34,740 bases of DNA from Bacillota bacterium (GTDB taxonomy: Bacteria; Bacillota; Clostridia; Caldicoprobacterales; Caldicoprobacteraceae). Where the stretch lies: assembly GCA_023622385.1 (NCBI GenBank), contig JAMNZI010000007.1:1-34740 (forward strand), read 5' to 3'. The translations under genes were made by a program, and so were the position numbers. The notes beneath the pieces were generated by a model that did not search any database, was not told the DNA's origin, and was given only the letters and a program-made list of their open reading frames with translations. Every line of letters starts with the position of its first letter. The first letter of the stretch is position 1. This document shows positions 5,045 through 8,669 of the stretch, piece by piece.

Positions 5045-5620
5045 TTAATCCTCCAATTGATGGGCCAATATGATGGCTTTTGCCAGATCGTATAAGGGGG
5101 TACCGGTGTCCATGCTCCGTTTTTGCAGCAGCCTGTAAGCCTGGCTTTCTGCCAGGCCGTATTTTTCCATGATGATGCCTTTGGCTTTTTCAATAAGCTT
5201 TCGCTCTTCCAGCTGAGCTTTGAGCTTTTTTATTTCTTCTTTGAGGTTCGTTATTTTGCGGTAGCTCAAAAGCGAGAGCTGGATAGTCTGCATAAGCCCC
5301 GATTTGGTCAAGGGGCGCTGGAGAAATATAATCCCGCTGTTTGAATCGTTCCAGAGATCCATTGTATTGGAGTTAGTTATTACGATGACGGGGGCGATAT
5401 TCTCCTGCTCTGCAATCTCTGCAATCTGTATGCCATTGATGGCAGGTAGGTCGGCATCTGCAATAATTAGGTCAGGATGCAAGGTTTTTATGCGCCGTAA
5501 GGCCGATGCCCCGTCGGTTGATTCGTCTATAACGGTGAAGCCTTGCCGGGTTAAGAATGCTTTGATTCTTTTCATCTCCTCTATTTGGTTTAGAGCAAGG
5601 CATATTCTAATCCCATTCAT
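5045..5620 (-). CDS. ANTAR-domain response regulator (NitR/AmiR-like antiterminator)
   Basis: 191 residues. An N-terminal CheY-like receiver (about 1-120) is joined by a coiled-coil linker (LKEEIKKLKAQLEERK) to a C-terminal ANTAR RNA-binding domain (about 130-190). The ANTAR core is visible: R-x-L-I-E-x-A-K-G-I-I-M, then Y-G-L-A-E-S-x-A-Y-x-L-L-Q-x-x-S-M. The receiver keeps an Asp55 (ADADLP), but the usual acidic pair after strand 1 is replaced by ALNQ and the KP lysine by RP. It is therefore probably a pseudo-receiver working without phosphorylation, as known for AmiR. The start at ATG 5620 follows GAGGGGAAGG; an upstream TTG at 5638 is less likely. Proteins of this class bind paired hexaloop hairpins and prevent termination. 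Such a target lies upstream of the divergent glnA. Confidence 0.92.
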   Translation of the reverse strand: MNGIRICLALNQIEEMKRIKAFLTRQGFTVIDESTDGASALRRIKTLHPDLIIADADLPAINGIQIAEIAEQENIAPVIVITNSNTMDLWNDSNSGIIFLQRPLTKSGLMQTIQLSLLSYRKITNLKEEIKKLKAQLEERKLIEKAKGIIMEKYGLAESQAYRLLQKRSMDTGTPLYDLAKAIILAHQLED

Positions 5621-5657: not shown

Positions 5658-5686
5658 ATTATACAGTTACTGCACAAAATTTGCAA
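5658..5686 (-). promoter_or_regulatory. Sigma-A-type promoter of the ANTAR regulator gene
   Basis: Read on the minus strand, TTGCAA (-35) and a perfect TATAAT (-10) are separated by 17 bases. Transcription would start near 5651, leaving about 30 bases of leader before ATG 5620. TTGCAA recurs at 5703-5708. Confidence 0.72.
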
Positions 5687-5854
5687 TAAATAGACGGGTG
5701 TTTTGCAATATAAATCAAAATATATGGATATTAAAAATATTTATGGGGTTTTTAACGAATGCTAATTACACATGGATGCAAGATTGTGTTATAGATATTG
5801 CAAAAGCGGTGCTGCATTGTTATATTTTAGCGATTGTAATGTAACGGAATACAG

Positions 5855-6204
5855 CTTGTACCGAGAATAGCTCCATTTATAAGCGACAGACACTTCGGAG
5901 TGGGGGCAGATGGGATAGTGCTCATCATGATCTCGGAAGTTGCTGATTTCAAGATGATGATATTCAATTCCGAGGGTTCAGAAGCCGAAATGTGCGGTAA
6001 TGCCATTAGGTGCGTTGGCAAATACGTGTATGACAGCGGATTGATGTCAAAGGCTGATGTAAGCATAGAGGCTTTGGCCGGCATTAAATTGCTCTACATA
6101 AAAGTGAGAGATGGCGTAGTTGAACTGGTAAAGGTGGATATGGGCTGCCCTATACTTGGCCCTAAAAGGATACCGGTAATAACCGGTCAAACTGCTTTTA
6201 TTTC
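5855..6204 (+). pseudogene. dapF: Remnant of diaminopimelate epimerase (dapF), both ends missing
   Basis: An open frame encodes a clear DapF segment: ISDRHFGVGADG, IFNSEGSEAEMCGN, RCVGKYVYDSG, SIEALAGIK and VDMGCPIL. Diaminopimelate epimerase makes meso-DAP for lysine and peptidoglycan. The visible part covers roughly residues 35 to 145 of a protein normally about 275 long. The N-terminal start region (M-x-G-x-G-N-D-F) and the whole C-terminal half with the second catalytic Cys are absent. The usual GNG after the first catalytic Cys is GNA. The frame runs on to 6310 but loses similarity near 6200, where the glnA promoter and leader begin. Internal GTG 5900 has no ribosome-binding site. I infer a dead fragment; a full dapF should exist elsewhere. 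Confidence 0.82.
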
Positions 6205-6239
6205 TCAACCGGTGCATTTACAGGCTAAAAAAATTTTTG

Positions 6240-6268
6240 TTGACATTTTTAGCATTTTATTATATATT
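6240..6268 (+). promoter_or_regulatory. glnA promoter
   Basis: A perfect TTGACA (6240-6245) and TATATT (6263-6268) are 17 bases apart in an A+T-rich stretch. The predicted start near 6274-6276 coincides with the beginning of the first ANTAR hairpin at 6273, so the leader RNA would begin with the regulatory structure. Confidence 0.82.
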
Positions 6269-6272
6269 ACCT

Positions 6273-6332
6273 ACGTTGTGCAATGGCGCGCAGCGTTAAT
6301 GTGTTTATGAAGGCGTACTCAACGGCGAGTAC
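6273..6332 (+). ncRNA. ANTAR-binding tandem hexaloop leader of glnA
   Basis: Hairpin P1 (6273-6296) has 9-base arms ACGTTGTGC and GCGCAGCGT, paired fully with two G-U wobbles, and the 6-base loop AATGGC. Hairpin P2 (6315-6332) has perfect 6-base arms GTACTC and GAGTAC and the 6-base loop AACGGC. Both loops have A at position 1 and G at position 4, the known ANTAR recognition signature, and differ by one base. The linker is 18 bases. The P2 left arm is also part of the left arm of the terminator at 6310-6362, so the two structures exclude each other. Binding of the ANTAR protein to P1-P2 should let transcription pass into glnA. Confidence 0.87.
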
Positions 6333-6362
6333 AACCGTCTGTTGGGTGCGCCTTTTTGTTTT
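6310..6362 (+). terminator. Regulated leader terminator upstream of glnA
   Basis: A 14-base stem pairs AAGGCGTACTCAAC (6310-6323) with GTTGGGTGCGCCTT (6341-6354) using two G-U wobbles, followed by TTTTTGTTTT. It shares bases 6315-6323 with the P2 hairpin and lies about 33 bases before the glnA start. That placement is expected for an antitermination switch. Confidence 0.88.
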
Positions 6363-6394: not shown

Positions 6395-7729
6395 ATGGCA
6401 AGATACAGCAAAGAGGATATTTTAAGGTTGGTCAAGGAACTGGATGTAAAATTCATACGCCTCCAGTTTACCGACATTTTGGGGACTTTAAAGAATGTGG
6501 CAATTACATCCGAACAGATTGAGAAAGCGCTGAACAACAAGTGTATGTTTGACGGCTCATCCATTGAGGGTTTTGTCAGGATTGAAGAGTCGGACATGTA
6601 CCTGGCACCCGATCCAAATAGTTTTACGATATTTCCGTGGCGTCCGCAGCCCGGTAGGGTGGCAAGGCTGATATGCGATGTGCTCAATCCCGATGGTACT
6701 CCTTTTAGCGGAGATCCTAGATATGTATTAAAGCGAGCTTTAAAAAAAGCCGCTGATATGGGATATGATAAATTCAACGTAGGTCCTGAGTGCGAGTTTT
6801 TCCTGTTTTTGACAGATAGCGAGGGAAAGCCTACCATTAAAACTCACGACAACGCCAGCTATTTCGACCTTGGCCCTGTGGATCTAGGTGAGGATGCACG
6901 GAGGAATATATGCCTTGCCCTTGAGGAGATGGGCTTTGAGATAGAGGCCTCACATCACGAGGTGGCGCCCGGCCAGCACGAGATTGATTTTAAATACCAG
7001 GATGCCCTTACCACCGCAGATAACGTGATGACCTTTAAGATGGTTGTAAAGACCATGGCTCAAAGGAATGGCCTGCATGCCACTTTCATGCCCAAGCCTA
7101 TATTCGGCGTCAACGGTTCTGGCATGCATACCAATGTTTCGTTGTATAGAGATGGAAAGAATGCCTTTTACGACGAAAACGATCCCCTTCAGTTGAGCCA
7201 GGAGGCTTACTGGTTCATAGGCGGTATAATGAAACACATAAAGGCAATCACTGCCATCACCAATCCCCTGGTAAATTCGTATAAGCGTTTGGTACCCGAT
7301 TATGAAGCGCCTGTGTACATCGCATGGTCTGCTAGAAACAGAAGCCCGCTTATAAGAATTCCTGCAGTCAGGGGTGAAGCCACGCGCATGGAGCTCAGAT
7401 CTCCCGATCCGTCCTGTAATCCGTATTTGGCGTTTGCTGTTATATTATCTGCCGGGCTTGACGGTATAAAGAATAGGATTCAACCTCCACCGCCGATGGA
7501 TAAAAACATATTCAGGATGAGCTGTGAGGAAAGGATGAAGGAAGGTATCGATTCATTGCCGGCTAGTTTGGAAGAGGCCATCGATGAGATGGAAAAAAGC
7601 GAACTGATAAGGGAAACCCTTGGGGAACATGTCTTTACTAAGTACATCGAAGCCAAGCGCAAGGAATGGGAAGACTATAGGACGAAAATCACCCCATGGG
7701 AGATTGAGCATTATTTGACCAAATATTAA
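6395..7729 (+). CDS. glnA: Glutamine synthetase type I (alpha subtype)
   Basis: 444 residues, the same length as B. subtilis GlnA. It makes glutamine from glutamate, ammonia and ATP as a dodecamer in the cytoplasm. Family segments are intact: [90 protein letters not shown] and [10 protein letters not shown]. The arginine in GFVRIEESD matches the residue used for glutamine feedback in the Bacillus enzyme. The adenylylation loop of the beta subtype is not evident. ATG 6395 follows AAGGAG at 9 bases. Expression is probably set by the leader switch upstream and the ANTAR regulator. A LysR gene follows after 52 bases with no terminator between. Confidence 0.97.
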
Positions 7730-7781: not shown

Positions 7782-8669
7782 ATGGATATAAATCTGGAGC
7801 TCTACAGGATTTTTTATCACGTTGTGAAAGCGGGTAGCATATCCAAAGCTTCTCAAGAGCTGTTTATATCCCAGCCTGCTGTCAGCCAAGCCATAAAAAA
7901 GCTGGAGAGCAGGCTAGGGGGTCAGCTCTTTGTGCGTGCCCCCAAAGGCATTACGTTGACTCCAGAGGGCGAGGTGCTGTTTAAGTATATCGAACAGGGC
8001 TACAACATGATCATGCTGGCAGAGAGCAAGTTCATGGAGGCCATAAATCTGGACATTGGTAGCATACGCATCGGCGCCAACGACATGACGCTGAAATATT
8101 TCCTGCTACCATATCTTGAGGAATTTCACAAACTGTATCCCAAGGTGAAGATGATGGTGACCAACAGGCCTTCGCCTGAGACGGTGGAATTTTTGAAGAA
8201 GGGTGCTATCGATTTCGGTGTGGTGAGCCTTCCGCTATCGGATGATGATTCGCTAGAGGTGTTTGAAGCTATGGAGATACAGGATTGCTTCGTAGCCAAT
8301 GAGCGCTTTGGACATCTTGCCGGGCGGGAGGTCTCGATTAGTGAGCTTGTAGAGTATCCCATCATTATGTTAGAGAAAAACACCAGCACAAGGCGATATA
8401 TTGATGAATATCTTTTGCGACATTCGGTGAAGCTCACTCCCGAGTTTGAGCTTGCTACCAGCGATTTGATAGTAGAGTTTGCTTGCAGAGGTCTGGGTAT
8501 ATCCTGCGTGGTGAGGAACTTTGCGGAGGAATATATAAAAACGGGTAGGTTATTTGAAATTAACCTAAAGGAAAAGATTCCACCGAGACATTTTGGCATA
8601 ATAAAGCTTCGCAATGTTCCACTCACTGCCGCCGCTAAAAAGTTTATGGAGCTTATACACGGCAAATAA
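7782..8669 (+). CDS. LysR-family transcriptional regulator
   Basis: 295 residues. The N-terminal winged helix-turn-helix (about 3-62) has the LysR pattern: YRIFYHVVKAGSISKASQ, ISQPAVSQAIKKLE and T-L-T-P-E-G. A periplasmic-binding-protein-like effector domain follows from about residue 90 (IRIGANDMTLKYFLLPYL, GAIDFGVVSLPL and so on). ATG 7782 follows AAAGGTGGG. It lies 52 bases after glnA and probably shares its transcript, so it may be nitrogen-controlled. Its effector and targets cannot be read from sequence. A strong terminator follows at 8737. Confidence 0.93.
   Translation: MDINLELYRIFYHVVKAGSISKASQELFISQPAVSQAIKKLESRLGGQLFVRAPKGITLTPEGEVLFKYIEQGYNMIMLAESKFMEAINLDIGSIRIGANDMTLKYFLLPYLEEFHKLYPKVKMMVTNRPSPETVEFLKKGAIDFGVVSLPLSDDDSLEVFEAMEIQDCFVANERFGHLAGREVSISELVEYPIIMLEKNTSTRRYIDEYLLRHSVKLTPEFELATSDLIVEFACRGLGISCVVRNFAEEYIKTGRLFEINLKEKIPPRHFGIIKLRNVPLTAAAKKFMELIHGK

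Follow-up and report, generated by a model that had tools for sequence, protein, structure and literature searches.

A degenerate receiver on a predicted glnA antiterminator of the Caldicoprobacteraceae: probable independence from a kinase, and glutamine synthetase as a candidate input

Introduction

How an antiterminator might be informed of the nitrogen status of its host, when its receiver domain has lost much of the phosphorylation pocket, is the question raised by a 191 amino acid (aa) ANTAR protein of the Caldicoprobacteraceae (Bacillota; Clostridia; Caldicoprobacterales). The protein is encoded beside glnA, the gene for glutamine synthetase (GS), on a 34,740 nucleotide stretch of DNA (NCBI GenBank assembly GCA_023622385.1, contig JAMNZI010000007.1, positions 1 to 34,740 of the forward strand), the whole of which is referred to here as the window; the genome to which it belongs, G000, is represented by an assembly that is ~94% complete. 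An initial annotation, drawn from the letters of the window, described the receiver as degenerate and its input as probably not a kinase, and guessed at GS or a PII protein as the source of a nitrogen signal. The analysis presented here favours a phosphorylation-independent, glnA-dedicated ANTAR antiterminator of the NitR kind, with GS as its most likely input, a reading which, taken as a whole, we regard as evenly poised.

Proteins of this sort have been described before. According to a review, NitR of Clostridium saccharobutylicum is an ANTAR antiterminator that induces the GS and glutamate synthase (GOGAT) genes on nitrogen limitation (PMC6316151), and the same role has been proposed for an ANTAR gene in C. 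thermocellum (PMC4676874). Predictions of ANTAR leaders upstream of glutamine synthetase genes date from 2012 (PMC3369931, PMC3369936), and receivers lacking the phosphoacceptor Asp were reported in 2015 to be enriched on ANTAR proteins (PMC4395418); the kind is therefore already known. Control by a ligand-binding partner also has precedents among ANTAR proteins, as AmiR is held by AmiC (PMC3369931) and NasT by NasS (PMC3795266). A 2025 review describes the on/off switching mechanisms of bacterial pseudo-receivers as remaining a mystery (PMC12632262), and a term search of its main text returned neither ANTAR nor AmiR. In a literature search covering few subscription papers, no publication was found that connects a degenerate receiver pocket with linkage to glnA.

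Results

A receiver without its acidic pair

The gene and its coordinates were correctly identified by the initial annotation, the span 5270–5620 that it singled out being the receiver. The features on which the following account depends are:

5045–5620, minus strand: ANTAR regulator gene, NitR-like receiver-ANTAR protein of 191 aa; open reading frame (ORF) with ATG start at 5620 and end at 5045, with Pfam domains
5261–5620, minus strand: degenerate (pseudo-)receiver, residues 1–120; PF00072 match, receiver fold in the model, superposing on EutV and many receivers
5069–5227, minus strand: C-terminal ANTAR RNA-binding domain; PF03861
5588–5593, minus strand: codons of L10-N11, at the place of the metal-binding acidic pair; alignments including intact ANTAR receivers, and EutV profile
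5456–5458, minus strand: codon of D55, the kept phosphoacceptor Asp; alignments
5375–5377, minus strand: codon of T82, at the conserved Thr/Ser place, kept; alignment with intact ANTAR receivers
5315–5317, minus strand: codon of R102, replacing the conserved Lys; alignment with intact ANTAR receivers
5495–5497, minus strand: codon of R42, in helix 2 (residues 37–47 in the model); alignment counts

Three of the five pocket residues are gone, these being the acidic pair and the Lys, with D55 and T82 present; under the definition given in PMC12632262, by which at least one of the five is missing, the domain is a pseudo-receiver. The residues named in the initial annotation were borne out: the Asp said to be kept in ADADLP is D55, the first Asp of that motif, L10-N11 stand within ALNQ where the acidic pair would be, and the Lys before Pro is replaced by R102; the kept T82 had gone without mention. 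Immediately after L10-N11, Q12 occupies the place of a Glu in intact ANTAR receivers, and the comparison with EutV that the annotation had recommended sets the D-D-E of the latter (6wsh) opposite L10-N11-Q12 in a profile alignment, placing no acidic pair in the pocket. The missing residues also proved common to close homologues, as the combination L-N-D-T-R is identical at all five places in the window protein, L061, L062, L063 and L166, the five closest full-receiver homologues, which argues that the loss is not due to chance.

The ANTAR domain of the protein matches PF03861 at E 3.9e-22 (78.2 bits against a cut-off of 27.3) and its N-terminus matches Response_reg (PF00072) at E 1.5e-12, and a profile search of the whole genome found this gene as the single ANTAR match. 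An AlphaFold model based on a 12-sequence alignment has a mean predicted local distance difference test score of 88.8, with lower confidence at the last residue and at residues 81–100, where block means fall to 68 and 67 around a short fourth helix; within the model, one long helix, residues 106–154, joins the receiver to the ANTAR domain. The best structure match of the model is EutV (6ww6; Z 20.1, root-mean-square deviation 3.3, 188 residues), superposing from residue 1, followed by Rv1626 (Z 18.9, 125–135 residues) and then many lone receivers, while the match to the AmiR fold is weaker (template modelling score 0.66). EutV Met172 and Tyr164 have equivalents in M170 and Y162. A C-terminal ANTAR domain, an N-terminal receiver fold with a long helix and the dual hexaloop (A1, G4)/terminator target described below are thus found together, as in receiver-ANTAR antiterminators, and RNA binding and antitermination by the 191 aa protein are predicted on these grounds.

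Pocket loss and linkage to glnA across the class

Among 391 genomes of the class, 193 have an ANTAR match at E 1e-8. One hundred loci, chosen by hand and not randomly among the matches listed, make up with the window a sample of 101, each carrying one ANTAR ORF by profile. glnA is present in 71 of these loci, lying directly upstream on the same strand in 64 (touching or overlapping the ANTAR ORF in three), divergent in the five of the window's family, and farther away on the same strand in two. Pocket counts were made over 98 complete receivers, the truncated L064, L090 and L160 being left out. All five pocket residues are found in 11 of the 98, and glnA in the locus of none of these 11; the degenerate receivers number 87, of which 69 are glnA-linked and 18 are not. 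Not one of the 69 retains both acidic residues, and at the Asp place they carry Asp (17), Asn (36), Gly (14) or Glu (2), leaving 52 without Asp. Pocket loss and glnA linkage are associated (Fisher p 3e-7) in a test that ignores kinship, for which a tree is the better guide. A separate scan of 80 named loci yielded 11 glnA-linked proteins, none of them intact, two of which (L165 and L171) lie on contigs already sampled.

In a 132-protein tree made without the pocket columns, the intact receivers form one side of a single branch (SH-aLRT 99). The Asp state changes at least nine times in this tree and the glnA-linkage label nine times, so that a single origin of linkage is not shown by it. The tree left out 46 rows from Actinobacteria, the duplicates L165 and L171 and the three truncated receivers; it is unrooted and came from a short search, with flags on several long branches and on one place where such branches meet. 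The one-branch separation, together with the repeated changes at the Asp, argues that the split between intact and degenerate receivers is old and shared and that the Asp changes repeatedly within it.

Outside the pocket, Arg occupies the place of R42 in 64 of 78 glnA-linked pseudo-receivers, as against 9 of 78 intact receivers, a set consisting mostly of closely related Actinobacteria, and in 18 of 20 degenerate rows that are not linked to glnA (one probably a fragment). R42 is a group signature and a candidate contact.

Kinases

The statement of the initial annotation that the window holds no histidine kinase gene agrees with a Pfam scan of 20 of its larger proteins, among which there was no histidine kinase, the remaining ORFs of the window lying outside the scan; nor was there an AmiC- or NasS-like protein among these 20, in which respect the locus is unlike those of AmiR-AmiC and NasT-NasS. 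The domain PF12282 (GAF_PdtaS) marks kinases of the PdtaS type, to which EutW belongs; this, the one kinase family counted, has no match in G000 and is found in 19 of the 391 genomes of the class. Genomes bearing it account for 10 of the 11 intact-receiver loci, compared with 4 of the 69 glnA-linked degenerate loci and 0 of the 18 other degenerate loci, and the four genomes concerned (G082, G135, G396 and G246) each have two ANTAR matches. This pattern is the most direct evidence from sequence that the protein would not be fed by the usual kinase. The complete absence of the acidic pair from the glnA-linked group, and of the Asp from most of it, further argues that kinase chemistry is not under selection there. 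With the one-branch tree, these distributions support the earlier proposal to the extent that we are confident, short of certainty, that the input of the window protein is something other than a kinase.

The glnA leader as RNA target

The region upstream of glnA contains the following features:

6240–6268, plus strand: promoter-like site of glnA, TTGACA-17-TATATT, 11/12, sigma-70-like; consensus scan alone
6273–6296, plus strand: P1 hairpin, hexaloop AATGGC (A1, G4), 9 bp; hairpin scan and RNA fold
6315–6332, plus strand: P2 hairpin, hexaloop AACGGC (A1, G4), 6 bp, the putative antiterminator; hairpin scan and RNA fold
6309–6355, plus strand: intrinsic terminator excluding P2, then a T run; RNA fold of the leader, z -5.55
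6395–7729, plus strand: glnA, type I glutamine synthetase, 444 aa; TIGR00653 above cut-off

The 91 nt leader folds as P1 plus the terminator (-42.6 kcal/mol; none of 200 shuffles is as low), and a leader ending before the 3' arm of the terminator folds as P1 plus P2. A dual hexaloop with A1 and G4 is the published target of ANTAR proteins (PMC3369931, PMC8934654). Scanning for two hexaloop hairpins with an overlapping terminator gave seven matches in 2.26 Mb (both strands summed), namely five glnA leaders of the window's family, one in L072, 266 bases before glnA, and one in L103 that resembles a plain terminator; no match remained when that sequence was reversed. A covariance model built from the five leaders recovered the leader site with E 1.7e-21 in a search of the genome, where the runners-up had E values of 0.69 (the same place on the opposite strand) and 3.7. 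Neither another convincing target in the genome nor a leader before the ANTAR gene itself was found with this model; targets unlike the five glnA leaders may have escaped it, the more so as scoring covered 150 of 300 first-look candidates. An Rfam search of the window returned no match at gathering thresholds. On the strength of the leader and the domains of its neighbour, the ANTAR protein very probably antiterminates glnA.

The protein has its best structural match in EutV of the EutV-EutW system of Enterococcus faecalis, which shares the dual-hexaloop target design (PMC3369931, PMC8934654); EutV has an intact pocket and a kinase, whereas the pocket of the window protein is lost and its genome has no PdtaS-type kinase that could be found. 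NitR, to go by its description and not its sequence, is likewise an ANTAR protein that serves the genes of glutamine synthetase, and the gene of the window protein lies beside glnA, as in NitR-like glnA-linked proteins; most linked relatives have the ANTAR gene directly downstream of glnA, whereas that of the window is divergent from it, with the remnant of a dapF gene alone between them.

ANTAR gene, leader and glnA in related genomes

Seven genomes of the window's family were compared, and in five of them glnA (in one case cut by a contig end), the leader and the ANTAR gene occur together. The ANTAR gene of G005 (L064, G005:C264) is frame-split near residue 115, between the receiver and the ANTAR domain, which in a draft could be an error. 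In G003, of the same genus as the window, the leader and the neighbouring lysR gene are kept and glnA is reduced to fragments (L255 5487–5846); no GS-family match was found in that genome, nor an orthologue of the ANTAR protein, the nearest hit to which was an ordinary receiver (E 1.4e-7). The P1 loop of G003 reads GATTGC, the changed bases being A1 and G4, on which recognition by ANTAR proteins depends, and P2 is unchanged. No match to the leader, GS or the ANTAR protein was found in G006, which is 82% complete. Such joint presence and absence is the pattern predicted for a regulator with one target, two draft genomes being few. A second copy of the leader, glnA and lysR was observed in L256 (G001:C15:1-4000), which shares a contig with the main copy, and represents either duplication or an assembly effect.

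Glutamine synthetase

No Gln-synt_C match other than the product of glnA was found in the genome. This GS can be aligned over its full length with the chain of PDB 4s0r (672.7 bits), the Bacillus GS-TnrA complex, and is of the type that binds regulators in Bacillus. R62 and E304, which in Bacillus have a role in glutamine feedback, are both kept. The idea that R62, through Bacillus-like feedback, universally ties GS to ANTAR proteins was considered and rejected: of the 67 linked GS proteins in which the position is occupied, 35 keep it.

Some linked GS proteins may no longer be enzymes. Of positions 53, 132, 245 and 333, at least two are substituted in each of L131, L142 and L154, and 132 alone in L128; positions 132, 245 and 333 are metal-site places. 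The first three score below the GlnA family cut-off, yet adjoin an ANTAR gene, and are candidate pseudo-enzymes; the match in the genome of L131 crosses one stop codon, and all three genomes hold other GS-family genes. The simplest reason for such a GS to stay next to an ANTAR gene, if catalysis has been lost, would be service as a sensor, an argument that is suggestive only.

Neighbouring genes

A putative promoter precedes the ANTAR gene, and two further genes flank glnA:

5658–5686, minus strand: promoter-like site of the ANTAR gene, TTGCAA-17-TATAAT; consensus scan alone
5852–6235, plus strand: dapF remnant, between the ANTAR gene and the glnA promoter
7782–8669, plus strand: LysR-type regulator, 52 bases 3' of glnA

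The dapF remnant corresponds to residues 29–156 of the gene of a relative, to which it is 66% identical. Gene order in the relative L061 is ANTAR, dapF, LL-diaminopimelate aminotransferase, glnA. No other dapF match was found in the genome of the window, where the matches to the aminotransferase are all distant (~26%), and this diaminopimelate/lysine step may therefore be lost or filled by other genes. The LysR-type regulator gene adjoins glnA in relatives, even the broken glnA of G003.

Discussion

The loss of the pocket and its spread, the mutually exclusive leader structures, the one convincing target and the absence common to two relatives are properties of the sequences; RNA binding, activity, a nitrogen signal and contact with GS are the inferred parts of the mechanism proposed. 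As the glnA leader is transcribed, an active dimer would bind the hexaloops of both P1 and P2, hold P2 and block the terminator, so that transcription would run into glnA. The receiver would act as a protein-docking or regulatory domain in place of a phosphorylation switch: when nitrogen is ample, glutamine-bound GS would bind the pseudo-receiver and turn the antiterminator off, and when glutamine is low, the antiterminator would be released. That GS is the input of the antiterminator is a possibility we place slightly short of even. More tentatively, the pseudo-receiver may serve throughout the Clostridia as a docking domain for GS acting as a sensor subunit, in parallel with GS-TnrA/GlnR of Bacillus but on RNA, some linked GS proteins having lost metal-site residues and been kept as a sensor alone.

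Several observations weigh against this account. The contact between GS and the pseudo-receiver is conjectural, and proximity of the genes and their joint loss would be just as expected were glnA the target and nothing more. R62 is absent from 32 of the 67 linked GS proteins compared, and a Bacillus-like feedback switch therefore cannot be general. On the RNA side, the P1-P2 fold alone is not unusually stable (z -1.38, with 15 of 200 shuffles at least as good), and covariation in the leader gives no independent support, the five sequences having one two-sided pair change and 246 of 500 shuffles doing as well. The dual hexaloop with its overlapping terminator was found before glnA in the window's family and in L072, but not within 330 bases upstream of the majority of other linked glnA genes, so that relatives may have another target or another form of it. 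Finally, the window's own family shows no variation at D55 and T82, which may therefore have a function.

This last point is the starting place for the view that the protein is still a weakly phosphorylated response regulator, acting via D55 with a kinase encoded elsewhere or acetyl phosphate. Both residues are kept in the five closest full-receiver homologues, phosphorylation can survive changes at the acidic pair, the Thr or the Lys, and pseudo-receivers with a kept Asp may still be inefficiently phosphorylated (PMC12632262). Here, however, the acidic pair and the Lys are all lost, 52 of the 69 glnA-linked relatives have no Asp at all, and no PF12282 kinase, the one family counted, was found in G000; a kept Asp can, moreover, serve dimer formation while unphosphorylated, as is reported for actinobacterial GlnR (PMC12632262), which differs from the window protein in being an OmpR-type DNA-binding regulator (by a title in the reference list of PMC12632262). 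Weak phosphorylation is accordingly judged quite improbable. Less so, though still unlikely, is the direct binding of a small molecule, such as glutamine or 2-oxoglutarate, in or near the emptied pocket, with no partner protein. Retention of the domain despite its lost chemistry would be accounted for, as would the R42 signature in helix 2; yet the pocket residues are highly variable among glnA-linked relatives, unlike a conserved ligand site, and the mean entropy of their receivers is 2.6 bits against 1.2 in intact ones, a comparison that leans because the intact set is mostly closely related Actinobacteria.

The protein might also need no direct switch, being a ready dimer, with its amount or competition setting read-through into glnA. 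Several pseudo-receiver regulators are dimeric without phosphorylation (PMC12632262), and the model, which has one long helix, has its best match in EutV, whose solved form is a dimer (PMC8934654); against this, an unregulated antiterminator makes the conserved terminator pointless unless the level of the protein is regulated, and the covariance model, within its limits, detected no leader before the ANTAR gene, so that we hold this rather doubtful. A PII protein that binds the pseudo-receiver and carries the nitrogen signal, the other guess of the initial annotation, has become very improbable. It is true that a PII match reaching E 1e-15 occurs in 53 of 66 genomes of the class with a glnA-linked pseudo-receiver (leaving out G008, G012 and G014, which came from another search), but 13, G000 among them, have none at that threshold. 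The sole weak match in G000 (E 1.5e-10) is to a 222 aa ORF (L161 1126–1794, G000:C81) encoding a tandem PII-like protein, not GlnB or GlnK, with a weak PF00543 match and no NCBIfam match. PII was on this ground judged an unlikely input for G000. The ORF beside the PII-like gene looks, by eye, like a multi-span membrane protein.

The pseudo-receivers linked to glnA thus form a large group, one branch away from intact relatives, with a candidate partner encoded next to them and, in the window, one defined RNA target of 83 bases (6273–6355). The question of how such a domain is switched is therefore one that can be put to two proteins and one RNA. For the bacterium itself, whose assembly has no ordinary PII gene, the arrangement suggests a way in which its only glutamine synthetase may be controlled.
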